Assembly (NCBI GenBank): GCA_015057705.1
Contig: SVDU01000001.1
Span: 372,001 to 436,000, forward strand
Reading direction: 5' to 3'
Source of the DNA: Paenibacillaceae bacterium
GTDB taxonomy: Bacteria; Bacillota; Clostridia; Lachnospirales; Lachnospiraceae
DNA: 64,000 nt
Under the pieces are notes generated by a model. The model saw only the letters and a program-made list of their open reading frames with translations, made no database searches and was not told the DNA's origin. A program made the translations under genes and the position numbers. Positions 4,054 to 63,705 of the stretch are shown here, in pieces. Numbering within the stretch: the first letter of the stretch is position 1; the number at the start of each line of letters is the position of its first letter.

Positions 4054-5595
4054 GTGAAGAGAGAAATGATTATCGTTCTGGATTTCGGCGGACAGTACAA
4101 TCAGCTGATTGCCAGAAGAGTCAGAGAATGCAACGTTTACTGTGAGGTCCATCCACACACACTGCCCCTGGACAAGATTAAGGAAATGAACCCCAAAGGA
4201 ATCATTTTCACAGGCGGTCCAAACAGTGCCTACAAGGAAGAATCCCCTCGCTGTGAGAAAGAAATCTTTGAAATGGGAATCCCGATCCTGGGTATCTGCT
4301 ATGGCTCCCAGTTAATGGCTCATATGCTTGGCGGTAAGGTTGCCACAGCTCCTGTCAGCGAGTATGGTAAGACGGAAGTTACCACAGTAGTTGGTAGCAA
4401 AATATTAGAAGATGTTAGTCCAAAGACCATCTGCTGGATGAGTCATACGGATTATATAGAGACAGCACCAGAAGGCTTCACTGTTACCGCTCATACTCCA
4501 GTATGCCCGGTTGCGGGAATGGAATGTGAAGAGAAGGGGCTTTACGCCGTTCAGTTCCACCCGGAGGTTATGCACACACAGGAAGGAACCAAGATGCTTT
4601 CCAACTTCGTTTACAATGTGTGTAAATGTACTGGTGACTGGAAGATGGATTCTTTTGTGGAGACTTCTATTCAGTCCATTAAAGAGAAGGTTGGAGACGG
4701 AAAGGTTCTTTGTGCACTGTCCGGTGGTGTAGATTCTTCTGTGGCAGCGGTTATGCTGGCAAAGGCGGTTGGTAAACAGCTTACCTGCGTATTCGTTGAT
4801 CACGGTATGCTTCGTAAGAACGAAGGTGACGAGGTTGAGGCGGTATTTGGACCTGCTGGCTCATATGACTTAAACTTTATCAGGGTAAACGCTCAGGAAC
4901 GTTTCTATGAGAAGCTGAATGGGGTGGAAGATCCGGAGACGAAGCGGAAGATTATTGGGGAAGAGTTTATTCGTGTTTTTGAGGATGAAGCGAAGAAAAT
5001 TGGTGTAGTGGATTATTTTGTGCAGGGAACCATTTATCCGGATGTGATTGAGTCAGGTCTTGGTAAGTCAGCTGTGATCAAGTCCCATCATAATGTGGGC
5101 GGACTTCCTGAGCATGTGGATTTTAAGGAGATTATTGAGCCACTTCGTCTTCTGTTTAAGGACGAGGTTCGCAAAGCTGGTCTGGAACTTGGAATTCCGG
5201 AATATCTGGTTTATCGCCAGCCATTCCCAGGTCCGGGGCTTGGTGTAAGGATTATTGGTGCAATTACACCGGAAAAGGTTAGGATTGTACAGGAAGCAGA
5301 TGCGATTTATAGAGAAGAGATTGCTAAGGCAGGCGTGGATAAAGGACTGGGACAGTACTTTGCTGCACTTACTAATATGCGTTCGGTTGGATGCATGGGC
5401 GATGAGAGAACTTATGATTATGCAATTGCTTTGAGAGCTGTACTGACTTCAGATTTCATGACTGCGGAATCTGCAGAGCTTCCTTGGGAGGTTCTGGGAG
5501 TTGTGACAAGAAGGATTGTAAATGAAGTGAAGGGCGTGAACCGGGTGTTGTATGACTGTACGGGGAAACCGCCGGCTACGATTGAGTTTGAATAA
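4054..5595 (+). CDS. guaA: GMP synthase, glutamine-hydrolysing
   Basis: Converts XMP to GMP using ATP and glutamine, the last step of guanylate synthesis. An N-terminal class I glutamine amidotransferase has its nucleophile in GICYGSQ (Cys about 82) and the FHPEV histidine. It is followed by an ATP-pyrophosphatase domain with the SGGVDSS loop and the GMP synthase C-terminal dimer domain. I place the start at GTG 4054 because GGAGG lies 7 bases upstream; an in-frame TTG at 4024 has no ribosome site. The protein is 513 residues. The last 15 bases are the prophage attachment core, so the gene is intact after integration but has lost its native terminator to a site 58 kb away. Confidence 0.97.
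5581..5595 (+). other. attL core (15-bp direct repeat)
   Basis: ATTGAGTTTGAATAA encodes the last four residues and stop codon of guaA. It is identical to 63691-63705, and the bases on either side differ. The integrase gene starts the element about 100 bases away. Confidence 0.88.
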
Positions 5596-5695: not shown

Positions 5696-7066
5696 TTATA
5701 GGTATTGGGTAGGCATTCCCCGTTTGGAGAAACAAAGTATGGTGTCAGGTGTCAGCTCCAGATAACCTTCTTTAATAATTGTTTCATATGCTGCTTCCGG
5801 ATCAGGCTTTAGGGTTAACATTGTAGGTAGGTCTTGAAAAGAAATAATATTCTTTCTTTTTGTTTTGCAATCCCATACAATGACATCATCATTTTCATAT
5901 GCGGTAGTGATAGCAGGTAACGAAGATTTTATTTCTGTCATCAAACTGTATAGTTGTGCTTCCATGGTACCTTGACCTGAGATAAGTCCGTTTGTATTGG
6001 CACTATGGAGACCCCGGGCAACTTCTTTATCTTTACCTGGGTATAGGTGTCCATAAGTATCCAACGTGACAGATACGTCCTTGTGACCTACACGTTTTGA
6101 TATAACAATAATATTAAATCCCATTTCTATTAGAAGGCTGACATGACTATGCCGTAGATCATGCACCCTTATTACGTTCAGGTCAGCGGATGCTGCAGCT
6201 GCCTTAATTTCCTTACGGAGATATGAACCGGTGAACATGAAGAGCCGGTCTGTTGGTTTTAGCCCATACAATTTACCAGCATATTCCATAACCTCGTCAT
6301 ATAGAAATTCTGGAATAGGAATGCATCGCACACTATAATATTTTGGTGCTTTAATGATCTGCTCACCTCTCACAATCTGAAAGTTCTTTTTAATATCTAA
6401 CTGGTGATCTGGTAAAAAGTCAGCAAGCGTCAGTGCAAGTAATTCCCCTTCTCTAATTCCACTCCAGTAAAGGATATCAAAAGCAATTCTGGCCGGAGTC
6501 TTTACAACATGAGTTCTAAAAAGCTTATATTCATCCAGTGTCCATATTTGCATTGCATCAGCTGTAGATGATCCCATGCTGCCAGCTAGCTGAGCCACAT
6601 TGTTTGGCAGTCCATAATAGCGCCGGCCGTAATTTAACATAGCGGAGAGTTCGTTGTTTATGGTACGGAGATATGTATCTGAGTAACCATATTCTTCATC
6701 GTATTCTTCATAGCCTTTTTGGCGAACCCAGGTCTGCCAGTTAAGCACATCAATAGGCATAATCTGATTTATAGGTGTTTTCTTAAAAAAAGGAGCTAAT
6801 TTTGTTTCAATCATATTTTCTTTTCTTACTGCCGTCGTTACTTCTATTTTTTCATTCTGAACTAAATCATCCATATATTTAATAATAAAAGCATCAAAAG
6901 GAATATCTGAAGATTTAATGAACTGGGATTTAAATGTAGATTCCCACGCATCTGCATCCTTTTTTCGTTCAAAGCCACGCTTGGTTTTTTGCTTTTTTTC
7001 GCCGGCGGCGTTCTTGTACTTGAATTTAACGGTCCATGTACCATTTTCTTCTTTATATGCTGGCAT
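5696..7066 (-). CDS. int: Prophage integrase, tyrosine recombinase
   Basis: Integrates and excises the phage at guaA. The N-terminus (residues 1-45) looks like an AP2-type arm-binding domain, followed by a SAM-like core-binding domain (about 55-155) and the catalytic domain. Catalytic residues are visible: Arg205 (SGIREGE), His302 and Arg305 (HDLRH), His328 (VGHKD) and Tyr338 (DTYGHLYP). At 456 residues it is longer than the usual roughly 390. About 110 residues follow the catalytic tyrosine and I do not recognise that extension. The ATG overlaps the stop of the upstream gene by one base and is preceded by GGAGAGG, so the two are co-transcribed and probably translationally coupled. Confidence 0.95.
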   Translation of the reverse strand: MPAYKEENGTWTVKFKYKNAAGEKKQKTKRGFERKKDADAWESTFKSQFIKSSDIPFDAFIIKYMDDLVQNEKIEVTTAVRKENMIETKLAPFFKKTPINQIMPIDVLNWQTWVRQKGYEEYDEEYGYSDTYLRTINNELSAMLNYGRRYYGLPNNVAQLAGSMGSSTADAMQIWTLDEYKLFRTHVVKTPARIAFDILYWSGIREGELLALTLADFLPDHQLDIKKNFQIVRGEQIIKAPKYYSVRCIPIPEFLYDEVMEYAGKLYGLKPTDRLFMFTGSYLRKEIKAAAASADLNVIRVHDLRHSHVSLLIEMGFNIIVISKRVGHKDVSVTLDTYGHLYPGKDKEVARGLHSANTNGLISGQGTMEAQLYSLMTEIKSSLPAITTAYENDDVIVWDCKTKRKNIISFQDLPTMLTLKPDPEAAYETIIKEGYLELTPDTILCFSKRGMPTQYL

Positions 7067-51559: not shown

Positions 51560-52709
51560 TTTTGATTTTATTAAAATGATCCAGGATGGATCTTTGGACG
51601 TGATTGAATGGTTGGCAGCTCAAAACGAGGAAACCATACGAGAAAGAGTTTATGAACGGGTGCCTGAAGGCTTGGATGTCTCAGTCGGAAGCTATGAATA
51701 TGATGCCATAGAGCCAACTAACGCAGAATTTGCAGTGGCTTATTTTATGCTGCGTAATGTGATTTTACTTGCGTTTCCCCAATATTCTTTTGGTCAATGG
51801 CTTACCCTGTCCGCCGCCGCCCATGGAGTATATCGAAAGGCTGCCACTTATGCAAGCGGAAATATTTTAATTCAGGGAGCCATTGGAACTGCAATACCGG
51901 CCGGGACCAAATTCTCAAACAGTATTCCTTCCGGATCTGCCTTAAGTGTTAAATATTATACTTCAAAAGAGTATTCGGTAATTGGAAGTGATAGCCAGGT
52001 AGAAATTGAGGTTACTGCTGATGAAATAGGCTCTGCCGGTAATGCTCAGGCTGGGGAAATAAATTTAAACCTGGCTGACATTCAAAATCTTACCTCTATC
52101 GGCAATGTCTCCGCTTTTACAAATGGAGTGGATGAAGAGAGTGATGATTCATTACTTACCCGGCTGCTTGATAAGGTCAGAAATCCCACCAGTGGAGGAA
52201 ATAAAAACGATTACAAACAGTGGGCGAAAGAAATATCCGGAGTTGTTGAAGTGGAAGTAATACCGCTTTGGAATGGTCCGGGAACAGTTCAGGTTATTAT
52301 TATTGGGGAAGGCGGTTCCCCTATTCCTGATTTGGTTTCGGTTGTAAAGGAGCATCTGGATCCTGCGGACCATGAAGGGGAAGGAGAGGGGCGGGCTCCC
52401 ATCGGAGCGGTAGTTACTGTGATTACTACAGAGAACTACGCTATCCGGATCGATATTAACGATTTGGAATTTGAAAGTGGATACAGCCTTTTAAATACTC
52501 GACAAGCTATTATTGAAGCAGTAAAGAAAGAAATTTCCAAGGTGAGCATTGGAGGTTTGGTGAGGATACATTATGTAGAGGATGCAATAAAGCATGTAAC
52601 AGGCGTAAAGGATTTCGGAAATGTGTTTCTTAATCAATCTAGTACCAATATGCAAGTACCGGCGCATTTAAAACCGTCAGCTGGGGAGGTGTATTTCGAT
52701 GGAAATTAG
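51546..52709 (+). CDS. gpJ: Baseplate J protein (XkdT-like)
   Basis: 387 residues with the baseplate J architecture: AAAHGVYRKAATYASGNILIQG, then VSAFTNGVDEESDDSLLTRLLDKVRNPTSGGNKNDYKQWA. Forms the baseplate wedge. Overlaps the next gene by 11 bases. Confidence 0.92.
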   Translation: MSLPDFDFIKMIQDGSLDVIEWLAAQNEETIRERVYERVPEGLDVSVGSYEYDAIEPTNAEFAVAYFMLRNVILLAFPQYSFGQWLTLSAAAHGVYRKAATYASGNILIQGAIGTAIPAGTKFSNSIPSGSALSVKYYTSKEYSVIGSDSQVEIEVTADEIGSAGNAQAGEINLNLADIQNLTSIGNVSAFTNGVDEESDDSLLTRLLDKVRNPTSGGNKNDYKQWAKEISGVVEVEVIPLWNGPGTVQVIIIGEGGSPIPDLVSVVKEHLDPADHEGEGEGRAPIGAVVTVITTENYAIRIDINDLEFESGYSLLNTRQAIIEAVKKEISKVSIGGLVRIHYVEDAIKHVTGVKDFGNVFLNQSSTNMQVPAHLKPSAGEVYFDGN

Positions 52710-53625
52710 CCGCTCTGAAGAAATGCTTAAATATGTTGAAGGGTATTACCGGGAAAGCAAATATTATCTGGCTCAGAACAGTGCCAAAGGTGAGGAACTT
52801 AATATCATCCATGCGATATTGGAGGATCTGCCCAATCAGTTTAACCCGCAGACAGCTACGTGGGGCCTTAGATTATGGGATGAATTACTGGAAATTGACG
52901 GAGGAATTCAGACCGTTGAGGATCACAGGGCAAAAGTGATGATGAAACTGATTGCCTTGCCAAGAATTACACCTATTTCCTTGGAAAGACTGATAAAAAG
53001 TATTGCAAAAGCAAATGTGGATATTATCCGGAACGTGGCACCGTATACTTTTCAAATCCGAGTGAGAGAAGATAGCCTTGACTGCAACAGCAACTTAATA
53101 CGGCAAATCGTAGAAGATTACAAGGAAGCACATATGGCATTTCACCAGGCGTATTATCTAGGGCACATTGTTTCAAAAGAACGTATTTATTTAAAAACTT
53201 TACATCGCATAACAATGTATTGGTTCCTTGAAGCGTGGCTTTTAAATGGGGCACATTCTCTAAACGGAGAGATGAAATTAGGATTTATATATCCAATGTA
53301 TAATCTTTTAGTATGCAACCGTATTTCAGTAGTAATTTCTGAGCGTTTTTATACAAAGACTATGCGGAATACCTTTATAGTGAAAACAACTGAAAAAGCC
53401 AAAGTTAGAGGCAGTATACGGCCTATTTTTAGCTGGTGGAATGGGGGCCTAAATAGAAAGCCAGATTATAAGACGAGGTCAACAAATCGGATTGATGTGA
53501 TTAATCCAGAGAGAGTATCCTCTCCAGTGGTAACTATTTCACATAATTTATGGCATTTAGATGGTTCTGTTATGTTAGATGGCAGCCGAACGCTGGATGC
53601 ATACCAAATTAAGGAGGTTTTATAA
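52699..53625 (+). CDS. Tail protein gpI/XkdU-like (DUF2313)
   Basis: 308 residues. The first 190 residues (EEMLKYVEGYYRESKYYLAQNSAKGEELNIIHAILEDL) are the DUF2313/YmfQ type that links baseplate and fibre. The last 100 residues are a beta-rich extension beyond the usual roughly 190, perhaps a fibre-attachment domain. Confidence 0.8.
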   Translation: MEISRSEEMLKYVEGYYRESKYYLAQNSAKGEELNIIHAILEDLPNQFNPQTATWGLRLWDELLEIDGGIQTVEDHRAKVMMKLIALPRITPISLERLIKSIAKANVDIIRNVAPYTFQIRVREDSLDCNSNLIRQIVEDYKEAHMAFHQAYYLGHIVSKERIYLKTLHRITMYWFLEAWLLNGAHSLNGEMKLGFIYPMYNLLVCNRISVVISERFYTKTMRNTFIVKTTEKAKVRGSIRPIFSWWNGGLNRKPDYKTRSTNRIDVINPERVSSPVVTISHNLWHLDGSVMLDGSRTLDAYQIKEVL

Positions 53626-53627
53626 TA

Positions 53628-54008
53628 ATGGCAGAAAGTATTGTTACAGATATTGCAAAAGAAAAAATGCTGAAGGCAAGGGCAGGAGTTTCACCCTTAC
53701 CACCTATTGTTGGGATGGCTTTTGGGGATGGGGCTAAAAATGTTTCGGGTGGAATAATTGCTCCAACCGCAAATCAAACAGCTTTGAACAATGAATTACT
53801 TAGAAAATCAAATGACAGTTGCAAAGAAATTACTAAATTAATTTATCGTTATTCTTGCACATTAGATGAAGGCGAATTGGCCAATAAATTTATAAATGAA
53901 ATAGCCTTGTATGATTCTGATGGAGATTTGATAGCGATAAAGACTTTCTTAGATAAGGGAAAAGATTCTGATCAAGAAATGGTATTTGAGATAGATGATA
54001 CATTTTAA
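53628..54008 (+). CDS. Tail-collar/fibre-associated protein
   Basis: 126 residues. ESIVTDIAKEKMLKARAGVSPLPPIVGMAFGDGAKNVSGG resembles N-terminal tail-collar (DUF3751) domains that anchor fibres to the baseplate. AAGGAGG upstream. It immediately precedes the switching fibre gene. Confidence 0.75.
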   Translation: MAESIVTDIAKEKMLKARAGVSPLPPIVGMAFGDGAKNVSGGIIAPTANQTALNNELLRKSNDSCKEITKLIYRYSCTLDEGELANKFINEIALYDSDGDLIAIKTFLDKGKDSDQEMVFEIDDTF

Positions 54009-54020
54009 AAGGAGGAGTTT

Positions 54021-54839
54021 ATGGCTGATTTTGAAATTGAAAAAGAGTATAGGGAACAACTGCGGAAATTAGAAACAACAGATCCTGCCCATGCTGACCT
54101 ATTTAATTCAACGTTTTCAACATTAATAAATAATGATGCATACCTCAACGAGCAGAATAACAAAATCAAACAACCAGAATTTGATGATTCTGGCAGCGTA
54201 GATGAAATAAAAGACTTCCCATCATTTTTATCATCTATGGTATCTAAGATGAGTATATTTAAGTTTTTTTCAGATTTGAAAGCTGGATTAAAATTTGTAT
54301 TACATACAGGGCAAATAGTCAATAACTGTGTTACGGACCGGTCAGACCTTCCAGGTTCGGCACATAATGATAAGGTTTTGATGGATAAATATTTGGCGTT
54401 AAGTAGTGATTTAAGTGAACGGCTTTTCTTTGGTGCTGGTACTGCGTTGCAAGCAAAGAACGGTACGACGTGGTACAGATTACAAATTAATCCTGATAAT
54501 TCAACAGGTGTTTTTAAGTCTATCGATAATGGTACCACATGGCCAATTTTTGAAAGATTTATAACAGAATCTGGATCAGTTAAAATAAAGAGTGGGTACA
54601 TAAACATTGCAACGACTGCTTCTTACGGCAATGAATACCAGGGATCTATGTCCATTCCATCTATCATTTCAGCTTTTAGTCTTACAGATAAAACGGTTTT
54701 GACAGTCATTTGTCGGGGAGGCAATCTTATATCAGATGGTGCAATTGTCCCAAAACATGGTTCAGACGGTTCTATATTTACACTCTCTGGTGCTGTGTCG
54801 GGTACATACAGGATGCATTTCGATATACTTTATAAATAA
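54021..54839 (+). CDS. Tail fibre with invertible C-terminus (currently expressed form)
   Basis: 272 residues, GGAGGAG ribosome site. Residues 1-131 are constant: an attachment region and an amphipathic/helical segment ending ...LALSSDL. Codons 128-131 (SSDL) are the 13-bp site AAGTAGTGATTTA (54401-54413). Residues 132-272 are the currently connected tip: a pyocin-knob-like beta fold (GTTWYRLQINPDN...NGTTWPIFERFI) followed by a second beta domain. Its stop lies 7 bp from the stop of an inverted alternative tip (54847-55107). I infer host-receptor specificity is switched by recombination at the site. Confidence 0.88.
   Translation: MADFEIEKEYREQLRKLETTDPAHADLFNSTFSTLINNDAYLNEQNNKIKQPEFDDSGSVDEIKDFPSFLSSMVSKMSIFKFFSDLKAGLKFVLHTGQIVNNCVTDRSDLPGSAHNDKVLMDKYLALSSDLSERLFFGAGTALQAKNGTTWYRLQINPDNSTGVFKSIDNGTTWPIFERFITESGSVKIKSGYINIATTASYGNEYQGSMSIPSIISAFSLTDKTVLTVICRGGNLISDGAIVPKHGSDGSIFTLSGAVSGTYRMHFDILYK
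54401..54413 (+). repeat. Fibre-switch site S1 (in the expressed gene)
   Basis: AAGTAGTGATTTA on the plus strand inside codons 127-131 of the fibre gene. Identical to S2 and one base different from S3 and S4. Confidence 0.88.
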
Positions 54840-54846
54840 TGATTAA

Positions 54847-55107
54847 TTAAATCCATGACCTCCACTGATTTCCCCAGCGCATACGATGTTTAAAGTCATT
54901 ATTCCAGTCAAAGAATAGCTGGATACCACTCGGACCATTATTAAATATGATGATAATTCCATCTTTCCCCGTTGGCGTTTTTGTACTTCCGTCATTTCGT
55001 ATGTCAATAGTAGCAATTTGCGTCTCCCGTAAATTATCCAGAGTTATAAGTGAACCATCTCCAATGGAATAGTTATTATATGGGAGGATGCTCGTTAAAT
55101 CACTACT
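54847..55107 (-). pseudogene. Silent fibre C-terminal cassette 2 (inverted)
   Basis: Minus-strand open frame beginning exactly at site S2 as SSDL, then 82 residues (TSILPYNNYSIG... to ...RWGNQWRSWI) and a stop. No start codon or ribosome site. Joined to the constant part in the same frame it would complete a fibre with a knob-type WGNQWRSW ending. Not a decayed gene but a stored alternative. Confidence 0.87.
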
Positions 55108-55108
55108 T
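55096..55108 (-). repeat. Fibre-switch site S2
   Basis: Reads AAGTAGTGATTTA on the minus strand, identical to S1 and in inverted orientation. Recombination S1xS2 would flip about 700 bp. Confidence 0.88.
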
Positions 55109-55203
55109 TATTAAAAAGATGGTAATAAACAAAATATTGTAATATTTTCCTTTTAAGTCTATAATTAAAAATGGATAAATAATCTGTATAGGGGGAATTA
55201 TGT

Positions 55204-56088
55204 ATGTTTAAAAAGAAAAATACGATAGGGTTTATAATCGGAGCATTAGCAATAATTACTGTAGCAATAACTAACAACACGAATAGTTATGCAAAAAGTG
55301 ATTTTGCCGTAACAACAAGGGATGAATCTATTGAATATAATGGAGTTACATATAAAAGAATTCAAGTTGATGGTGGAGATTTATCAGGTTCAAGGCAACC
55401 TAATGTGGCGGTAGATGTTGGGTATGGGGATAGAACATATTGGGCGTTAACAAATGAGCATAGTCAGCTTGTGTATGTAATAGCTGACAAAATCACCTTG
55501 CAAGATGAAAACACAGAACAAGTTACTTCTGAGGGACGTTATTATAGTGATGAGGCAAAAGTACCTGGCACTGAAAGGTCAGACTTAGATGAAGGACATG
55601 TCATAGCAGATAGTCTTGGTGGAGTTTCGAATGCATACAATATAACACCACAAGATAGCACTTTAAATCGCCATGGAGATCAAGCCTATATGGAGAAAGT
55701 GATTCGTGATGCAGGTGGTTGTGAACATTTCATAGCTACTATCACATATCCAGATACTTCAACTCAAATTCCGTCACATTATCATTATGAATATATACTC
55801 AAAGGGAATGCGGTTGTAGATGATTTTGATAATATAAATCCTGACGAAGTTAATAAAGCACAAGCAGATAAACAACAAAAAGAATCAAATGTAACAAGTG
55901 GAAATAATAATTCTAGTGAATCTAGTATAAATGAACAAGAGGAACTGAAAAAGATAGATACTAATGGCAATGGTAAAGTTACAATAGCCGAAGCAAAAGC
56001 AGCTGGATACAAAATGCCAATCTATTCAACTCATTGGTTGTATAAATATATGGATGACCGAGATGGAGATGGTATGGTAGGAGAATAA
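55204..56088 (+). CDS. Secreted DNA/RNA non-specific nuclease with Ca-binding tail
   Basis: 294 residues. An N-terminal signal/membrane segment (TIGFIIGALAIITVAI) is followed by a NucA/DNase-like core: DEGHVIADSLGG holds the catalytic-type His (the family has DRGH; here DEGH), and NAYNITPQDSTLNRHG the metal-binding Asn region. A Ser/Asn-rich linker leads to two EF-hand-like loops (DTNGNGKVTIAEA, DRDGDGMVGE), like excalibur domains. Atypical AT content marks it as cargo. It may digest extracellular DNA for the lysogen. GGGGGAAT ribosome site. Confidence 0.82.
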   Translation: MFKKKNTIGFIIGALAIITVAITNNTNSYAKSDFAVTTRDESIEYNGVTYKRIQVDGGDLSGSRQPNVAVDVGYGDRTYWALTNEHSQLVYVIADKITLQDENTEQVTSEGRYYSDEAKVPGTERSDLDEGHVIADSLGGVSNAYNITPQDSTLNRHGDQAYMEKVIRDAGGCEHFIATITYPDTSTQIPSHYHYEYILKGNAVVDDFDNINPDEVNKAQADKQQKESNVTSGNNNSSESSINEQEELKKIDTNGNGKVTIAEAKAAGYKMPIYSTHWLYKYMDDRDGDGMVGE

Positions 56089-56101
56089 TAGTCATGTTAA
56101 T

Positions 56102-56128
56102 AGGAGCCGTAAGGCTCCTGTTTTTTTA
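56102..56128 (+). terminator. Terminator after the secreted nuclease
   Basis: AGGAGCCGTAAGGCTCCT followed by G and seven T. Separates nuclease from the lysis-region genes. Confidence 0.88.
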
Positions 56129-56146
56129 TAAAGAAAGGAGTTCTTA

Positions 56147-56884
56147 ATGGAAAAAGTTAAAATAGGAGATAAGGAACTATTCTATGATATCCAAGAGATT
56201 CTTCCCATTAATACACATGTTTTGCGTATCGTTTTTGCTAACTCACTGCCTGCAAGTTACGGAGACATTACTACGTATACAGCTGGGGGAATTGAAGGAG
56301 TTACGCTTACTGGTTACGATACAGTTTATCGTGATGAGGGCAAGACAGTTTATTTAAGCAATGATAAAAGTGTTTATATACCAGTGGAAACCTCTACCGG
56401 GCCTATGGATCCACCGGAACCACATTCCCCCACTATGAAGGAACTAAAGGCATCAAAGCTTAGGGAAATATCGGCCGCCTGTGAAAAGTCAATCTATGCA
56501 GGAGTAGATGTTAATTTAGCTGATGGAGTAATAGAACATTTTTCCCTTACTGAACACGATCAGCTCAATTTGTTCGGAAAACAAATCCAGGTGTCAGCAG
56601 GTGTAGAGAAAATAGAATACCATTCAGATGGTATGCCATGCCGATATTATAATGCTGCTGATATGCAGACTATAATTTCGGCAGCTATGTGGCATGTATC
56701 TTACCATACTACATATTGTAATGCACTTAATATATGGATATCCGGGATTGAGCAAGCAGGGGATCTGGAAACTATTTCCTATGGGGTGGAAGTTCCCGAG
56801 GCTTACCAATCGGACGTACTTAAAGCATATTTTATACAGAAGGCTGCCATGACGGAAGGAGAAAGAGATGAAACAGCAAGCTAA
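56147..56884 (+). CDS. Phage tail-accessory protein (DUF4376-like)
   Basis: 245 residues. The N-terminal 90 residues are beta-rich; the C-terminal 150 (KASKLREISAACEKSIYAGVDVNLADG...YHTTYCNALNIWI) resemble DUF4376 domains seen near fibre genes. GAAAGGAG upstream. May act as a fibre-assembly factor, which is inference. Confidence 0.6.
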   Translation: MEKVKIGDKELFYDIQEILPINTHVLRIVFANSLPASYGDITTYTAGGIEGVTLTGYDTVYRDEGKTVYLSNDKSVYIPVETSTGPMDPPEPHSPTMKELKASKLREISAACEKSIYAGVDVNLADGVIEHFSLTEHDQLNLFGKQIQVSAGVEKIEYHSDGMPCRYYNAADMQTIISAAMWHVSYHTTYCNALNIWISGIEQAGDLETISYGVEVPEAYQSDVLKAYFIQKAAMTEGERDETAS

Positions 56885-57284
56885 ATACATATTTTTATTA
56901 GTGTCCGGTGGATTTATGTACAGCATTATAGAAATTTTATATCGGGGGTATACCCACTGGACCATGTTTATTTTGGGCGGTTTATGTTTTATATGTCTAG
57001 GGTTAATTAATGAGTTGATTCCTTGGAGTACGCCACTCTGGAAGCAGATGCTTATTGGTATGGCTATAATTACATGCTTGGAGTTTATAACTGGGTGTAT
57101 AGTCAATATATGGCTTGGGTGGGGCATTTGGGATTACAGTAATTTGCCAGGTAATATATTTGGCCAGATTTGTCCTCAGTTCACTTTCTTATGGTTTTGG
57201 ATAAGCGCTGCCGGGATAATATTAGACGATTGGCTTAGATATTGGCTTTTTGAAGAAGAACGGCCACATTATAAATTAATATAG
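56868..57284 (+). CDS. Membrane protein, 'ABC transporter type IV'-like (CmpB family)
   Basis: 138 residues with four hydrophobic spans and the motif WDYSNLPGNIFGQICPQF typical of the CmpB-like family. It has no ATPase partner. Common just ahead of holins in clostridial prophages. Role unknown; possibly part of lysis or membrane targeting. Confidence 0.7.
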   Translation: MKQQAKYIFLLVSGGFMYSIIEILYRGYTHWTMFILGGLCFICLGLINELIPWSTPLWKQMLIGMAIITCLEFITGCIVNIWLGWGIWDYSNLPGNIFGQICPQFTFLWFWISAAGIILDDWLRYWLFEEERPHYKLI

Positions 57285-57299
57285 GAGGATAAGGTTACG

Positions 57300-57605
57300 T
57301 TGACTTTTTGGGATTATGTAAAAGAGTCTTGGCCGGGATGGGTGTGTTCAGCAGCTGTCCCGGCCATCATTTATTTATATACACAGGTTATGGCCAGCCG
57401 TAATGGCGTAAGAGCCCTTTTGAGAGCAGAAATAATAAGAGTGTATAACAAGTATCATGATGATTTAAAGTATTGTCCAATTTATGTTAAACAATCCATG
57501 GAGGATATTTATAAACAGTATCATGCTCTGAAAGGTAATGGAGTTGGTACAAAGCTTTATGAAGAAATTATGGAATTACCAACAGAAAAAGAGGAGGAAA
57601 ATTAA
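57300..57605 (+). CDS. Holin-like or lysis-accessory membrane protein
   Basis: 101 residues from TTG 57300 (AGGAGGATAAGG upstream). One N-terminal span (GWVCSAAVPAIIYLYTQVMA) and a charged helical C-terminus. Next to the holin gene by no gap, so likely co-translated. Could be an antiholin or spanin-like helper. Confidence 0.6.
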   Translation: MTFWDYVKESWPGWVCSAAVPAIIYLYTQVMASRNGVRALLRAEIIRVYNKYHDDLKYCPIYVKQSMEDIYKQYHALKGNGVGTKLYEEIMELPTEKEEEN

Positions 57606-57809
57606 ATGAACAATGAAAAGATTTTAAAGTGGGTAAGAGCTGCAGGGGTAAGAGCAGTTAAGACAATGGCGCAGACGGCCATTGCAACCATTGGGACTAC
57701 AGCGGTAATGTCTGGGGTAGATTGGATTATGGTAGGATCAGCAACGGCACTGGCCGGGATTCTTTCTATACTTACATCGGTGGCTGGGCTACCGGAATTA
57801 AAAGATTAA
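57606..57809 (+). CDS. Holin (r1t type)
   Basis: 67 residues with two hydrophobic segments (AQTAIATIGTTAVMSGVDW, GSATALAGILSILTSVAGL), typical of short r1t-like holins that time lysis. GAGGAGG upstream. A terminator and the endolysin follow. Confidence 0.8.
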   Translation: MNNEKILKWVRAAGVRAVKTMAQTAIATIGTTAVMSGVDWIMVGSATALAGILSILTSVAGLPELKD

Positions 57810-57812
57810 TTT

Positions 57813-57829
57813 GTTGCGACCGTCGCAAC
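57813..57829. repeat. GTTGCGA palindrome, copy 3
   Basis: GTTGCGACCGTCGCAAC, perfect arms of eight bases. The exact inverse sequence is at 34351-34367 and a close relative at 17350-17365. Confidence 0.75.
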
Positions 57830-57834
57830 ACTAT

Positions 57835-57861
57835 GGACCTGGGACATCCTGGGTCCTTTTT
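57835..57861 (+). terminator. Terminator between holin and endolysin
   Basis: GGACCTGGGA pairs with TCCTGGGTCC (10 bp, one G-U pair region), followed by TTTTT. It could attenuate endolysin transcription. Confidence 0.78.
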
Positions 57862-57884
57862 CTATTGAAAGGAAGGGGAATATC

Positions 57885-58757
57885 ATGATTAGTAATTGTG
57901 GACATGACGAAAATGGAAAATACACAGGTGGTAAAGCCGGGGATCAGACTGGTGGAGAGTACGCAGTAATTAATTGGTATAACCGTCCATGGGCCTGTGT
58001 GTTAAGGTATCCAGATATTAATGTAGGGTTAAAGATTGCGGAGATTTCTAAAGCTGCAGCAATTAATAATAACGTGGGTTATGATCAGGGACAGAGACTT
58101 ACATATTACAACTGCTTACGAGCTGTAAATTGGGATCCTGCTAAGATCATAACTCCATGTGAGGGTGACTGTAGTGCAACAACGGCAGCAAATGTGATTG
58201 CCGCCGGAAATCTATTAGGTTTTAGTAAGTTAAAATCTATCAATCCATCAAACACTACATCGACATTGCGTAAGGCTCTTGTTGCAGTAGGATTTGAACT
58301 TTTGACAGACAGCAAGTACCTTACAGGTGATAACTATTTGCTTCCGGGAGATATTCCACTATATGATGGACATCACGTAGCAGTTAACCTTGATTATGGA
58401 TCAGAAGTTAAGCCAGCAGAAGAGAAGAAATCCGGCTGGATAAAAATAACAGATGGATGGATGTATTATAATGGTGATACCGATTTGCCGGTTCGTAATG
58501 ATTGGGTAGAGGATCAGAGCAAGTGGTACTGGTTTAACGCGGCCGGGATCATGGTCACGAATACCTGGTATCAGTATAATGCTGCATGGTATTATTTAGG
58601 ACCGGATGGGGCTATGTGCCAGTCACAGCTTGTGGAGAATTCCGGGAAGATTTATGCAGTGGACACAGATGGAAAAATGGTTACAGGTGAAATTTTGTTA
58701 TCTACTTTGAGCGACGGGACGCTGCAGTACAAAGGTTTAATAGGAGACGGCAAGTAA
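57885..58757 (+). CDS. Endolysin: NlpC/P60-type peptidase with choline-binding repeats
   Basis: 290 residues, no signal peptide, so export depends on the holin. Residues 1-180 are a cysteine peptidase/amidase domain: GDCSATT with Cys96 and GHHVAVN with His163/164. From about 190 there are four aromatic repeats (GWIKITDGWMYYNG, QSKWYWFNAAGIM, AAWYYLGPDGAM, IYAVDTDGKM), choline-binding type. Such repeats imply choline or a similar ligand on the host wall. GGAAGGGGAA upstream. Confidence 0.87.
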   Translation: MISNCGHDENGKYTGGKAGDQTGGEYAVINWYNRPWACVLRYPDINVGLKIAEISKAAAINNNVGYDQGQRLTYYNCLRAVNWDPAKIITPCEGDCSATTAANVIAAGNLLGFSKLKSINPSNTTSTLRKALVAVGFELLTDSKYLTGDNYLLPGDIPLYDGHHVAVNLDYGSEVKPAEEKKSGWIKITDGWMYYNGDTDLPVRNDWVEDQSKWYWFNAAGIMVTNTWYQYNAAWYYLGPDGAMCQSQLVENSGKIYAVDTDGKMVTGEILLSTLSDGTLQYKGLIGDGK

Positions 58758-58951
58758 TATTACTTTGAACCCAGAACCGGTCATTAACTGTAATGCGCTA
58801 TGTATGTTTCAAATCATGATGGGGTGCAGTATATAGGTACATTTTAATTAATGTTGGCGGGCTCTTGTCCTGAGTCCGCCATTAAAAGTACTTTTCAATT
58901 TTAGGGTCGTATGGTATTATAGTTAAGTAGAGTGGCAGAAAGAGAGGCCAC
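58758..58951 (+). other. Intergenic region with endolysin terminator
   Basis: GGCGGGCTC...GAGTCCGCC hairpin at about 58856-58880 ends the lysis operon. A -35/-10 pair (TTTTCA/TATTAT) precedes the next small gene. Confidence 0.6.
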
Positions 58952-59162
58952 ATGAGTAGTAATAATAACTGTCTGAAAGCAATCAATTTAATTCATTTCG
59001 ATGGCAAATCAATTAGTCTAAATAATGTATGTATGTCTCATACAATTTTTCAAGAAAACCAAGTTTTACAAGCAGCAATCTACGGTGATATGATAGTTAT
59101 AACTTCAGCAATGGAAGAAGAAAAAGAAAGTAATTAATTTGTATTATAGCCACTCTACTTAA
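58923..59162. repeat. 14-bp perfect inverted repeats around a small gene
   Basis: TTAAGTAGAGTGGC (58923-58936) and its inverse GCCACTCTACTTAA (59149-59162) frame the 61-residue gene. The bases GTATTATAG precede both repeats on the plus strand. Confidence 0.75.
58952..59137 (+). CDS. Small hypothetical protein
   Basis: 61 residues, beta-rich pattern LKAINLIHFDGKSISLNN, acidic C-terminus. AGAGAGG lies upstream. Enclosed by the 14-bp inverted repeats; no family recognised. Confidence 0.5.
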   Translation: MSSNNNCLKAINLIHFDGKSISLNNVCMSHTIFQENQVLQAAIYGDMIVITSAMEEEKESN

Positions 59163-59276
59163 ATTTTACTTTAATATACAAAATTGATTTTTTAAAGTAA
59201 TAAGATTATAATAAAAAAACGATTTTAAACTGAATATCAATTATATAATAATCAAATTTATTTGGAGGAAGTTTAT

Positions 59277-59951
59277 ATGGATAAAGAGTTAATTAATACC
59301 GAGAATATTGATGAAATATCAATAAAAAGAATAATTGATGGTTTAACAGGTTTTATATCTGGAAGTAAGGCAGACTATGCACACTCAGCAAATAGATTAT
59401 TGAAAAGCCTATTTGCTCATGATTTTTTATTTCAGTTACAAAAAGAATGGGATAAATATGTCGATAGAGGTAATATTGACTTAGATTATAAAAAATCAAA
59501 GCCATTCTTAAATAGTTTATCTGAATTAATGGACTATCTTGATACGGATTTACCAAATGATGAGATAGCTCTAACTTTAAAAAAGTTATTCTTTATACCA
59601 GCTTTTAAAGACTATTACAAAGAAGACAAGCTTTTAGCAATTGAATATATGAAAATAATAAGAAAGTTAACGCCAGGTGAAATGGTGGTTTTGTTTACAG
59701 CATATAATAATGTTGGAATAAGTACAGACAGTGCTTCAAAATGGTTGGAAATAATTGCAGAGAAATCCACTCTGAAATATACAGAACTAGTAGAGCTGCA
59801 TGAAAAGAAATTAATTGATTTAAATCTGATTACAAAACGTAAATATGAGGATAATAGTGGATTATGGGTTGGAAAATATTCTCGCTTAACAAGTTTGGGG
59901 TATAACTTATGTCATTTCATAAAATTGTATGATGAATTTAATGAGAGATAA
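59277..59951 (+). CDS. Unknown protein with C-terminal winged-helix-like region (cargo)
   Basis: 224 residues from ATG 59277 (TTGGAGGAAG upstream). All-helical, with LTPGEMVVLFTAYNNVG and an end ...YSRLTSLGYNLCHFIKLY that resembles a winged helix. AT-rich relative to the phage. A loose resemblance to Abi-alpha (DUF4393) proteins is not strong enough to name it. It ends facing the recombinase gene with a shared terminator. Confidence 0.55.
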   Translation: MDKELINTENIDEISIKRIIDGLTGFISGSKADYAHSANRLLKSLFAHDFLFQLQKEWDKYVDRGNIDLDYKKSKPFLNSLSELMDYLDTDLPNDEIALTLKKLFFIPAFKDYYKEDKLLAIEYMKIIRKLTPGEMVVLFTAYNNVGISTDSASKWLEIIAEKSTLKYTELVELHEKKLIDLNLITKRKYEDNSGLWVGKYSRLTSLGYNLCHFIKLYDEFNER

Positions 59952-59963
59952 AAAATTGTATTG

Positions 59964-60030
59964 AATCCTTATACTAATAATGAAATACAACTTTATTTTT
60001 TGGTGGTATTTCATTATTAGTGTAAGGATT
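59964..60030. terminator. Bidirectional terminator (25-bp stem)
   Basis: AATCCTTATACTAATAATGA plus five bases (59964-59988) pairs over 25 bases, one mismatch, with 60006-60030 around a 17-base loop with a T run. It separates convergent genes. Confidence 0.85.
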
Positions 60031-60034
60031 TATA

Positions 60035-61051
60035 TTACGGTACATATTTTCTATGGGCTTCCTGTACGGTGGCTTTGGCAATAGCTGCATAGCACTGCTT
60101 TGTTGTGTCCAGTTGGACGTGCCCTAATTTCTCGGCCACAAGTTCCAGAGGAGCCCCCTTATTAATCATATCTGTGCCAACGGTGCGTCGGAAAACATGA
60201 GGCGTTAATTTGACTGCAGCAAGATCATTGTCTCTATTCTTGATTCGTTTTAATATATTTCTTACTGTGCTACTACTTACACGGTTATGAGGTTTTTGAT
60301 TTGTTACAAATAAAGCCTGGTTATTATCGGTACGGCTTTTAAGATACCGTTCTAAATGAACCTTTGCTTGGCCGTTAAAATACACCTCTCTTTCCTTACG
60401 TCCTTTTCCGTATACAATGGCTTTCATATCGGAAAAATCAACATCATTGATATTTAAGCGGCAAAGCTCAGATACCCGTATCCCAGAGGAATATAGTAAA
60501 TCGCATAATGCTAATTCCATTTCATTTTTGCAGGCGCAGCGAACCTCTTCCCGCTGTTCAGCTTTAAGGGTCGGACCTATACGACGTTCTACTTTGGTTT
60601 CTTTTAGCTTTTTGGCTGGGTTATCAGGTAGCATATCCTCTTCATATAGCCAACCGAAGAAGCTCCTCATGCATATTAGCTTACTATTATATGTACGATC
60701 TTTCCATTTTCGAAAAAGTTTTCCGTATGCAAGATAACCTTTTAGATCTGAATATGATATTTCAATAATATTTTTATTTATATAATCAAGCATATTTTGA
60801 AGATTATTTTTATAATTTGCAATACTGGCATCAGTGCATCCGTCAAGCTTCATTTGTATTAGATATTGTCTTAAATATTCTTCCGTACAATCAATTTTGG
60901 TAGATAAACCTGTTCTGGCCTCTTCTTTAATTAATTTATAATTTCCTAAATACATATATATGAGTAATTTTGTTTCGTGTATTTTTTCTGTTTTTATTAT
61001 CCCTGCTATTTCAAACTGCAATACTAAATCATTTATAACATTTTCTTCCAT
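60035..61051 (-). CDS. Tyrosine recombinase, predicted tail-fibre invertase
   Basis: 338 residues. SAM-like core-binding domain (about 50-140) and a catalytic domain with Arg192 (SGIRVSEL), Lys in GKGRKER (about 217), His285 and Arg288 (HVFRRT), His311 (LGHVQL) and Tyr321 (KQCYAAI). Unlike the integrase it lacks an arm-binding N-terminus, as in Xer, Rci and other DNA invertases. It lies between the two fibre-cassette pairs, all of which share a 13-bp site. Hence I predict it recombines those sites. ATG 61051 has AGGGGTG upstream. Confidence 0.85.
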   Translation of the reverse strand: MEENVINDLVLQFEIAGIIKTEKIHETKLLIYMYLGNYKLIKEEARTGLSTKIDCTEEYLRQYLIQMKLDGCTDASIANYKNNLQNMLDYINKNIIEISYSDLKGYLAYGKLFRKWKDRTYNSKLICMRSFFGWLYEEDMLPDNPAKKLKETKVERRIGPTLKAEQREEVRCACKNEMELALCDLLYSSGIRVSELCRLNINDVDFSDMKAIVYGKGRKEREVYFNGQAKVHLERYLKSRTDNNQALFVTNQKPHNRVSSSTVRNILKRIKNRDNDLAAVKLTPHVFRRTVGTDMINKGAPLELVAEKLGHVQLDTTKQCYAAIAKATVQEAHRKYVP

Positions 61052-61077
61052 GGTGCACCCCTGTAAACTTATTACAG

Positions 61078-61124
61078 TTAGAATATAACCATTATCGTTA
61101 TATTAGAGAAAAAGTTAGAATATA
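61078..61124. repeat. Direct repeats in the recombinase promoter
   Basis: AGTTAGAATATAAC occurs at 61077-61090 and again about 33 bases on. AATATAAC-CATTATC-GTTATATT forms an inverted pair. These could be regulator-binding or autoregulatory recombinase sites upstream of the minus-strand recombinase gene. Confidence 0.5.
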
Positions 61125-61154
61125 ACACATTCCGTTATTCCGGGATTTTGTTTT

Positions 61155-61167
61155 AAATAGTGATTTA
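61155..61167 (+). repeat. Fibre-switch site S3
   Basis: AAATAGTGATTTA on the plus strand; differs from S1 and S2 by one base. Direct repeat to S1, inverted relative to S4. Confidence 0.87.
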
Positions 61168-61689
61168 ATGTATAAAGGTAATGCCAATGATTTAGATACG
61201 TTAATCAATGAAGAATACACTGATAAGGTTATAACAAACAGTTATAATTACTCCTCCACGGGAGTGCCAGAAAACTCAAGCGGATATGTTATTACATACT
61301 ACAGGACACCTGCCAGCGTATTACAAAATTTATATACTTTCACAGGGAACTGTTATACAAGGCGCAGAGACATTAATACAACACCTACATGGGTAAAACT
61401 CCCATCAAATGAAGATTTAGAAAACAAATTATCTACCAATGCTTTTTACATTACGAATATAAAGACTTTAGCTGATTTGTATTCCGCCTATGCCAGTGGT
61501 ATCATATTTGTTTATAATAGTACTGGAAATGTCCCAAGTTATGGTAGTGGAATTATATTACGATGTTCAAACTCTAACTTTAAACTCTTACTTGTAGATG
61601 ATGATACTGATGCAATGTATCTATGGTCATTAACGGGTGCGGCTGGAACAGCTCTAATAATTAGTGCGAATAAAACCAAGGTTATTTAA
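61156..61689 (+). pseudogene. Silent fibre C-terminal cassette 3
   Basis: Plus-strand frame that begins at site S3 as NSDL and continues MYKGNANDLDTLINEEYTD... for 173 residues to ...SANKTKVI. The ATG at 61168 lies directly after the site and has no ribosome site, so it is not an independent gene. The content has a knob-like motif (NTTPTWVKLPSNEDLENKLS) and a distal beta domain. Stop is 7 bp from that of cassette 4. Confidence 0.87.
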
Positions 61690-61696
61690 TGATCAT

Positions 61697-62009
61697 TTAT
61701 GCTATCATCTTCCAGGCAAGCCAGCTTAGGTATCCATAAAAATGATTTCTGTAATATACATTGTTCCTTTTGATATCAAACAGTATTTGAACTCCGTGAA
61801 AACTTACTTTGGATAAAATAGGATAAGTGTTGAATGAAAATACGAATACCGCTTCTCCTCCTGTCGCTCCAGAAATGGAAGGACCATTGGTGATATCTAA
61901 AACATACGAAAAATAAAATCCGCTGGTTATAGCATTTAAATCTAAATTCTCAGTATAGGGTGGAGAAATCATTAATTTGGGAAGTAATGTTTGTGCACCT
62001 AAATCACTA
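61697..62009 (-). pseudogene. Silent fibre C-terminal cassette 4 (inverted)
   Basis: Minus-strand frame from site S4 reading NSDL, then about 100 residues (GAQTLLPKLMISPPYTE... to ...YGYLSWLAWKMIA). No ribosome site. The Tyr/Trp-rich end YLSWLAWK is tip-like. It pairs tail to tail with cassette 3. Confidence 0.87.
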
Positions 62010-62012
62010 TTT
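62000..62012 (-). repeat. Fibre-switch site S4
   Basis: AAATAGTGATTTA on the minus strand, identical to S3. Recombination S1xS4 would invert about 7.6 kb and attach cassette 4 to the constant fibre part. Confidence 0.87.
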
Positions 62013-62120
62013 TATGGCATAACAAAGATATTAAAAAAAGTTAAATAATCAATAATTGTTGTAAATTCCCTTATTTAAAATTATAATGTTGATATATTAC
62101 TAATAAGGAGCAATTGTACA

Positions 62121-63065
62121 ATGAGTAATCTGTTTGTTTTTGGTAATGGTTTTGATTTGGCTCATGGTTTTGATACAAGCTATGATGATTTTAAAATATG
62201 GCTTAGTGAAAAATATGATGAATCATCAGATTCGTATGAGTCGTTTCCTAAATACAACACTAATTATAAAAGGTTTGAATCATTTAGTTTTGAAAGCATG
62301 TCTTATTTTTTCTATAATCTTATTTACAATGTAGTTGGTAGTGATTGGAGACAATTTGAAGCAGCATTGTCAAAACTTGATTGGGTTTCAATAATCGAAA
62401 ATGAATGTTATGGCAGTAATTATAAAGAACGAATGTTCCAAGCTGAGGATATAGCTGTACAAATAAGAGATTTTGCTCACGTTTTAAAAGATAGTCTATT
62501 TAAAAGTTGGGCTGAGGAAATTGACATTTCACACCCTAAGTCAATTTCAGAAGAACTTATAGGATTGATTGATAATGAACATGATTATTTCTTGAATTTC
62601 AATTATACTGATACACTTGAAAAACACTATAATATCAATAATGTTTGCCATATACACGGACAATCTTCTAAACATGATAGTTTGATCGTGGGACATTCGG
62701 GAAAAGATAAAATAGAGTTTGATAGCTATTTGACTATTACTTATTCTTACATTCGACAGATTTATGAAGATTATCGAAAAGATACTAAAAACATATATAA
62801 AAAGCACATGGATTTTTTTAATAAATTATATAATAATAATATTACTAATATTTATATACACGGTTTTTCATTTTCAGATGTTGATATGTTTTACTTAAAA
62901 AAAATCGCACTAAAACTAGATACTTCTGTGGTACGTATTCATCTACATAGCTATTTAGAGGAGGACTTTGAAGGCTTCAAAAAGAAACTCATTAGATGTG
63001 GATTCCATAATATTAACATTATACAGTTTAGATTATCTGATATCAATGATGTATGTGAGATATGA
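62121..63065 (+). CDS. AbiH family abortive-infection protein
   Basis: 314 residues. The opening LFVFGNGFDLAHGFDTSYDDFKIWL is the AbiH signature, and FNYTDTLEKHYNINNVCHIHGQ with GHSG follows. AbiH was described as a phage-exclusion factor in Lactococcus; its mechanism is unknown. AT-rich cargo at the right end with AAGGAGCA upstream. Immediately follows the fibre cassettes. Confidence 0.85.
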   Translation: MSNLFVFGNGFDLAHGFDTSYDDFKIWLSEKYDESSDSYESFPKYNTNYKRFESFSFESMSYFFYNLIYNVVGSDWRQFEAALSKLDWVSIIENECYGSNYKERMFQAEDIAVQIRDFAHVLKDSLFKSWAEEIDISHPKSISEELIGLIDNEHDYFLNFNYTDTLEKHYNINNVCHIHGQSSKHDSLIVGHSGKDKIEFDSYLTITYSYIRQIYEDYRKDTKNIYKKHMDFFNKLYNNNITNIYIHGFSFSDVDMFYLKKIALKLDTSVVRIHLHSYLEEDFEGFKKKLIRCGFHNINIIQFRLSDINDVCEI

Positions 63066-63238
63066 AACTAGGAGGCGGAAAATTCTGTCTCCTTTTTAAT
63101 AAAAAATTACTATTTATTTTGGCAGTCTTAATTTGATATAAGAATTACTTATTGCTATAACCTATTCCGTGATTATATAACATTTTACCATCGGTTTTAT
63201 CAACTGATGGTAAAGTATAACGGAAGGAGCAATTACAT

Positions 63239-63499
63239 ATGATAAAAATTTTACTCTCTTCAAGGCTAGGTGACCGAAAATGGACACAAGCAGATTTGGC
63301 GCGAAAAACAGGTATTCGGCCAACGACAATTTCGGAGCTGTACCATGAGATGGTAGAAAGAGTAAACTTAGAACATTTGGATCTGATTTGCGAAGCATTA
63401 GACTGCGATCTCAGCAACTTAATTGTATATGAACCAAATAAAGAGCCAAAAATTGTACATACCATTAATGGGTCACCTAAGCCAAAGGACATAAAGTGA
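63239..63499 (+). CDS. Cro/C1-type HTH regulator
   Basis: 86 residues with a classic HTH_XRE (residues 3-65: QADLARKTGIRPTTISELY). It lies at the far right end of the prophage, near attR. AAGGAGCA precedes the ATG. May regulate the cargo or act as a toxin-antitoxin-like regulator; no partner seen. Confidence 0.78.
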   Translation: MIKILLSSRLGDRKWTQADLARKTGIRPTTISELYHEMVERVNLEHLDLICEALDCDLSNLIVYEPNKEPKIVHTINGSPKPKDIK

Positions 63500-63507
63500 T
63501 ATGTCTC

Positions 63508-63690: not shown

Positions 63691-63705
63691 ATTGAGTTTG
63701 AATAA
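63691..63705 (+). other. attR core (15-bp direct repeat)
   Basis: ATTGAGTTTGAATAA, identical to the guaA end at 5581-5595. Marks the phage-host boundary on the right. Confidence 0.88.

Follow-up and report, generated by a model that had tools for sequence, protein, structure and literature searches.

A probable shufflon-type tail-fibre switch with a Xer-like tyrosine recombinase in a contractile-tailed prophage of the Lachnospiraceae

Background

Tail shufflons driven by the tyrosine recombinase Rin have been described in prophages of Bifidobacterium (PMC6109161) and Eggerthella lenta (PMC8778435), where the effect of the switch on host range is called putative (PMC6109161). In Streptococcus pneumoniae, PsrA inverts hsdS at the 15-bp repeat IR1 (PMC7096588, PMC4948785). 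Inversions among prophage regions, tail fibres especially, were surveyed in four species of Proteobacteria (PMC5903667), and serine-type tail-fibre inversions are reported in PMC8987985. Here we describe a tail-fibre gene with four alternative C-terminal segments and an adjacent tyrosine recombinase in a stretch of 64,000 nucleotides (the window; contig SVDU01000001.1, positions 372,001 to 436,000, assembly GCA_015057705.1, Paenibacillaceae bacterium, placed in the Lachnospiraceae by GTDB). A reading made from the sequence only had called such a switch unusual. This holds in part, as tyrosine-recombinase tail shufflons are already published in the Rin papers (PMC6109161, PMC8778435).

Results

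The 13-bp sequence AARTAGTGATTTA is present in four exact copies in the window, as the sequence-only reading had claimed: site a at 54401..54413 (+), site b at 55096..55108 (-), site c at 61155..61167 (+) and site d at 62000..62012 (-). The whole 4.53-Mb genome contains five exact copies, of which four belong to this locus, and no match to the pattern reversed (read backwards). The fifth copy led nowhere; it lies, read in context in unannotated sequence, in chromosomal surroundings with no visible phage link. Allowing two mismatches gives 12 copies in the window compared with 8.7 expected by chance, so only the exact copies are meaningful. Site a extends to the 14-mer TAAG-TAGTGA-TTTA starting at 54400. 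The central six bases, TAGTGA, are identical in all four sites, while site position 3 is G in sites a and b and A in sites c and d.

The constant N-terminal part of the fibre (54021..54410, +) ends in ...LALSSD ahead of the TTA codon of the site and forms a single open reading frame (ORF), 54021-54839, together with segment 1, the tip in the expressed position (54411..54839, +, 141 residues). It is preceded by genes for a baseplate J-like protein, a tail/baseplate protein and a tail collar fibre protein. Three silent tips were found by ORF reading: segment 2 (54847..55098, -, 82 residues), segment 3 (61165..61689, +, 173 residues) and segment 4 (61697..62002, -, 100 residues). All four follow an SSDL or NSDL peptide in one common frame, in agreement with the earlier proposal. 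Sites b and d have an in-frame stop immediately ahead of SSD/NSD; site c has 13 open codons upstream, the site peptide counted, and an ATG immediately behind it. The order is thus + - [recombinase] + -, two tail-to-tail pairs around a tyrosine recombinase, and both stop-to-stop gaps are 7 bp, as had been noted. The recombinase does lie between the pairs, but not alone: a nuclease, an endolysin and other genes are there too, about 6 kb in all. Segments 2-4 have no match in Pfam or PHROGs, and the whole fibre ORF has none in Pfam and two weak matches of unknown function in PHROGs. Megablast of 52000-63500 against phage records gave no match. An AlphaFold model of the fibre (272 residues, single sequence) had a predicted local distance difference test score (pLDDT) of 36 and was left unused.

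The recombinase (60035..61051, -, 338 residues) consists, according to the Pfam scan, of a SAM-like core domain and a catalytic domain (SAM-like N-terminal matches; PF00589, E 8.4e-33), and no arm-binding domain was found in that scan. The solved chains nearest to it by sequence are XerC-like, XerD and XerA proteins, while its scores fall below the NCBIfam equivalog cut-offs: 185 bits versus 220 for XerA, 166.5 versus 335 for XerC and 152.6 versus 329.6 for XerD. R192, H285, R288, H311 and Y321, which we take to be the catalytic residues, are invariant in an alignment of nine recombinases. No serine recombinase was found beside the fibre gene; nine other proteins in one scan and 10 in another were without a resolvase match, most prophage ORFs lying outside both scans.

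Related prophages with permuted segments, a comparison that the sequence-only reading had suggested, were found with the breakpoints in the site, and they support its proposal that recombination at the sites swaps the fibre tip. The near relative is L029, a 7-kb viral contig that ends inside the recombinase and in which two sites are visible. It is 95.4% identical to the window over 1850 bp of the fibre region (constant part and upstream) and 91-94% identical in the later genes. In L029 the constant fibre part is fused in frame, exactly at the site, to segment 4 of the window (325 bp, 97.8%), with the lysis genes in normal orientation. At site position 3 the constant part of L029 still has the G of its own gene, which places the exchange to the right of that base. 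Only two of the four window segments were seen to occupy the expressed position, segment 1 in the window and segment 4 in L029.

The other two cases are distant relatives of the window. In L043/L044 the a/b pair is reciprocally inverted (99.1%) between flanks of 99.9-100% identity, and polymorphisms on either side limit the crossover to the 8 bp ATGCTGAT, spacer included. These loci were first candidates for two prophages, which was ruled out: they are the overlapping ends (C1:1-18901 and 5280919-5300135) of the same contig of genome G014. Outside the shufflon, the contig's first 18.9 kb align with its last 19.2 kb up to both ends, with indels and almost no mismatches. This end repeat is probably the untrimmed overlap of a circular assembly, with one locus in two copies, in which case both switch states were present in one DNA preparation; a true 19-kb duplication reaching both contig ends seems far less likely. 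In L096/L098, two prophage regions of genome G108, the c/d pair is reciprocally inverted, with cassettes of 97% and 100% identity, and the recombinase segment (97.5%) and right flank (84%) are both in place, while pair 1 and the constant parts have no match to each other at the DNA level. The recombinase of L142, which is 80% identical to that of L096, is aimed at the constant gene, and those of L096 and L098 are directed away from it. Finally, L144 and L145 have flanks of 99.2-99.4% identity and a wholly different pair 1, with the breaks at the sites.

The recombinase search gave 52 matches, of which 49 were covered, 40 of them as wide stretches and G042 as a short locus; G144, G343 and G049 were left out. 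The layout was found, with an exact 10-mer, in 11 of the first 28 recombinase matches versus 0.10 expected from shuffles, and in 31 of 90 recombinase loci versus 0.00 expected with 10 shuffles per locus, these 90 including repeats (L043/L044; L010/L127) and close kin and not all being independent. Word length 10 misses the true cases L035, L043, L044 and L142 through site mismatch or distance, and nine loci are cut near the recombinase by contig ends, so the layout counts are underestimates. Divided by context label, the layout is present in 8/23 tail loci, 17/22 hsdS loci (L052, L053, L056, L008, L099, L100, L102-L106, L111-L113, L119, L129 and L136), 4/5 loci beside an Rhs protein and 2/40 others. 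The labels rest on tblastn markers of our choice, with the exception of L037, L143, L144 and L145, assigned to tail by site or recombinase kinship, L142, assigned by its ORFs, and L018, L113, L119, L120 and L129, assigned by HsdR matches alone, mostly weak.

The sites of these loci have a common core, TAAA-N6-TTTA, with inverted arms that are sometimes one or two bases off and an asymmetric 6-bp spacer. The spacer is common within a locus and different between loci: TAGTGA in the window, L040-L042, L045, L048, L096 and L098; TAGCAA in L039, and also in L026, L037 and L117 with fewer sites visible; TGCTGA in L044; TGGCGA in L035; TCACAA in L109; and CAATAA, CGAAAA, CGATAA or TGATAA in the hsdS loci. 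Some sites depart from this pattern. L057 and L101 retain the left arm only, and other repeats are found in L097, L113/L119/L129 and L123.

The phylogenetic tree of 85 recombinases, to which long-branch warnings apply, shows that the hsdS loci cluster, with 4 label changes among 21 rows versus a shuffled mean of 19.1; the tail label has 11 changes among 23 rows versus 20.7. The window groups with L029, L035, L037, L039 and L026, and also with L030-L034, which lack the layout. Kinship alone is therefore no proof of role; that proof comes from the sites and the permutations. A viral-contig scan with the L044 recombinase found no relative. In the Terrisporobacter phage TPELB_ph1 a tail-region protein is followed by a related recombinase, and no repeat set was recognised there.

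In five genomes, four of them of the same genus as the window, the locus lies beside a large Rhs/YD-repeat protein (L040, L041, L042, L045 and L048). They contain four cassettes and an N-terminus of 42 residues that resembles a tail fibre (MSSTNKTSLGLN..LNSD), and the recombinase layout is again the same (exact word in 4/5). None of the phage markers chosen matched in them, and one cassette has 79% protein identity to a phage tail cassette.

The junction between the two tails of a pair is AAATGATCATTT in many loci. Taken together with the adjoining bases, this element often reads TAAA-TGATCA-TTTA, that is, the site arms around a palindromic spacer. In the window the shared stop/stop elements are J1 (TAATGATTAATTA, 54837..54849; the best 12-mer of the pair is 3 mismatches off the palindrome) and J2 (TAATGATCATTTA, 61687..61699; 1 mismatch off), and both gaps are 7 bp because of this shared element. 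The pairs counted were hand-listed from loci with recognised sites, some of them related (24 tail, 10 Rhs-adjacent and 24 hsdS; 30 for the comparison of partners). With at most one mismatch, AAATGATCATTT was found in 13/24 tail-context pairs versus 0.20 expected and in 9/10 Rhs-adjacent pairs versus 0.10. In the hsdS set it was exact in 0/24 and had one mismatch in six pairs versus 0.42 expected; these six belong to L102, L136 and L138, whose own site contains TAAATGATAA, one base off. L138 is counted with hsdS here, has no marker match and is among the others in the 90-locus count. AAATGATCATTT is missing from 11 tail pairs, among them J1 of the window and every pair of L035, L057, L101, L109 and L117, so the element is not required everywhere.

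Cassettes have also changed partner across such junctions. Segment 4 is paired with segment 3 in the window and with another segment, X, in L029; the Rhs-adjacent L040 contains a silent tail cassette of L039 (82% at the DNA level) beside a different partner; and further re-paired cassettes are found between L041 and L048 (75%) and in two pairs within L048 (95%). Pairs that stayed intact, in L043/L044, in L096/L098 and in two pairs of L041, count against partner exchange.

The remaining genes between the pairs begin directly after site b with a DNA/RNA non-specific endonuclease (PF13930; 55204..56088, +), which has a sub-threshold EF-hand match and would be carried on an invertible centre. It is followed by a tail-fibre-type protein (DUF4376 in Pfam, phrog_1348 in PHROGs; 56147..56884, +) and by three small genes upstream of the endolysin (56868..57809, +), a phrog_20274 protein of unknown function and two short ORFs, among which a holin may be present. 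The endolysin (57885..58757, +) has an ELLD domain and choline-binding repeats. Between two convergent genes, at 59964-60030, there is an inverted repeat with 28-nt arms, 93% complementary and separated by 11 nt, which is probably a bidirectional terminator.

The prophage has its own integrase (5696..7063, -), which adjoins a GMP synthase gene, is distinct from the switch recombinase and is provided with an arm-binding domain. The 15-bp sequence ATTGAGTTTGAATAA at 5581..5595 (+), in the 3' end of the GMP synthase gene, is probably the left attachment (att) core. Its second copy lies in direct repeat at 63691-63705, which gives a prophage of about 58 kb. Among its proteins are a tail sheath, a tape-measure-like protein, baseplate J and a YqbQ-like protein; the tail sheath and baseplate-type proteins point to a contractile tail. 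In the right arm, immediately outside site d, an AbiH-family abortive-infection gene (PF14253, E 2.9e-43; 62121-63065) is likely to be anti-phage cargo.

Discussion

The sites, the reading frames, the type of recombinase, the permuted products found in nature, whose breakpoints lie in the site, and the conserved layout together make it highly probable that this contractile-tailed prophage carries a tail-fibre switch of the shufflon type, run by the Xer-like tyrosine recombinase at 60035-61051. The assignment of that enzyme to the switch, the binding of receptors by the fibre tips and present-day flipping in the window are inferred. The recombinase would recognise TAAA-N6-TTTA and exchange strands within its asymmetric 6-bp spacer (TAGTGA in the window), and recombination of inverted sites would turn the intervening DNA round. 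A crossover between a and b would give a 0.7-kb inversion in which segments 1 and 2 trade places behind the constant N-terminus, and one between c and d a 0.85-kb inversion that turns pair 2. The 7.6-kb inversion between a and d would deliver segment 4 (or 3) and flip the central 6 kb including the lysis genes, and a subsequent inversion between b and c would restore the centre. Since the site encodes a short linker (N/S-S-D-L), every product would be an in-frame fibre with another tip. The four states proposed in the sequence-only reading are retained as four tips, but these are unequal: segment 2 is one short inversion away, while segments 3 and 4 need the 7.6-kb inversion and a second one. 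L029, with segment 4 expressed and its lysis genes in normal orientation, shows that this end point can be attained, whether by inversions or by phage-phage exchange. Among the loci checked, lysis genes are inside the span only in the window and L029; in L043, L044, L096, L098 and L142 the matched holin, endolysin or neighbouring genes are outside it, and in L035 and L039 the centre contains another gene.

Several observations count against this reading. Recombination between the direct pairs a x c and b x d would remove both the lysis genes and the recombinase by deletion, and no sequence feature accounts for how this is avoided; the Rin authors leave the same point open for Rin (PMC6109161). 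The layout-bearing relatives other than L029, where measured, have recombinases of only 32-63% identity. Near relatives of the enzyme may also lack the layout: neither four sites nor a tail-marker match was found in the stretches covered of the phage contigs L030-L034 (recombinase 61-63% identical) and of L038 (68% over the best segment), although L035, in the 61-63% group, has sites. L028, the one other record with an exact match to the window (13,963 bp), is in the same state, and it may be the same strain as the window source. Plain inversion leaves unexplained both segment X of L029, absent from the window, and the pair-2 content of the two G014 copies: pair 2 of the end copy is missing in the start copy, where a gappy version of pair 1 (95%) stands in its place, perhaps as a mixed consensus.

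Segment X, the G014 difference, the near recombinase relatives without four sites and the replacement of the whole of pair 1 between the sites of L144 and L145 would all be expected if the segments were exchanged between phages in evolution, through homologous or illegitimate recombination where short sequences are shared, with the recombinase serving another end. Such exchange by itself is an improbable explanation of the locus, given the exact reciprocal inversions with crossovers in the site, one of them between probable assembly copies of one locus, and the position of the recombinase between the pairs in 31/90 loci. Still less credible, to the point of being nearly dismissed, is that segments 3 and 4 entered the prophage on a small element, with the recombinase as its integrase. 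Integrases are common among tyrosine recombinases and the present enzyme adjoins pair 2, but the prophage has its own integrase and the repeat at the GMP synthase gene, the recombinase and pairs hold one layout across many genomes, and the arm-binding domain is missing in the Pfam scan.

The switch may also be a frozen remnant that works in relatives and no longer in the window prophage, which would agree with a shufflon as the kind of system. The 3 mismatches of J1 from the palindrome, the single state of the window and L028, and the penalty that lysis genes in the span should impose on long inversions speak for decay. We regard it as unlikely, though less so than the two preceding alternatives, as the recombinase frame is intact with the conserved residues kept (their catalytic role being assumed), all four segment frames are open, the four spacers are identical and the near relative L029 is in a different state.

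A further step is the tentative idea, which we consider rather doubtful, of a shufflon in two tiers. The asymmetric sites would choose the tip, and the junctions would be a second class of sites for the same recombinase, re-pairing cassettes and letting them travel between loci. With the palindromic spacer of TAAA-TGATCA-TTTA the junctions could recombine in either orientation. The lysis genes and the recombinase would ride on the centre, so that tip choice is coupled to lysis competence. The four re-pairings fit recombination between junctions without proving it, and selection for stops is an alternative reason for the element, as it bears stop codons on both strands.

If the shufflon reading is correct, tyrosine-recombinase tail shufflons extend from actinobacterial prophages to phages of Lachnospiraceae, and the prophage can probably change its fibre end and hence its receptor. 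The relatives suggest that one recombinase family and one site grammar (TAAA-N6-TTTA with two flanking pairs) serve tail tips, type I restriction specificity and the Rhs-adjacent locus. A spacer that is common within a locus and different between loci is a simple, testable rule for finding more switches, and the avoidance of direct-site deletion by an arm-less recombinase becomes testable. As a component of shufflons, the palindromic junction would be new.

The R64 shufflon acts on a plasmid-borne pilus adhesin. It is likewise a multi-segment C-terminal switch, and its recombinase Rci uses asymmetric sites (see also PMC11852207); two Rci homologues with palindromic repeats are mentioned and set aside in that paper. 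Min of p15B switches several C-terminal segments in a similar way (PMC6109161), but Min, Gin and Cin are serine recombinases, unlike the enzyme of the window. PsrA resembles it, by description, as a tyrosine recombinase inverting coding segments at a short site within a gene; its target is a restriction specificity gene instead of a tail fibre. The layout described here also occurs in hsdS loci, around relatives of the window recombinase.

The kind of system is thus already known from Rin. The literature covered, mostly titles and opening lines of abstracts and hence weak evidence of absence, gave no description of the layout, of the palindromic junction, or of lysis genes on an invertible centre, and partner change at such a junction was likewise not found described. 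Compared with Rin as published, the variable genes here form two tail-to-tail pairs flanking the recombinase instead of lying between the constant gene and rin, the sites are TAAA-N6-TTTA with a spacer common within the locus instead of TTCCCTAACCC or TTCCGTAT, and the palindromic junction between tails and the lysis genes in the span are features of the window. The two systems share a receptor-binding protein whose N-terminus is constant and whose C-termini are interchangeable, each set of C-termini lying behind one common short asymmetric site, a tyrosine recombinase that is separate from the prophage integrase and arm-less (for Rin, in Bifidobacterium; PMC6109161), and site inversions between related prophages, here reciprocal in L096/L098 and L043/L044 and seen as a permuted product in L029.

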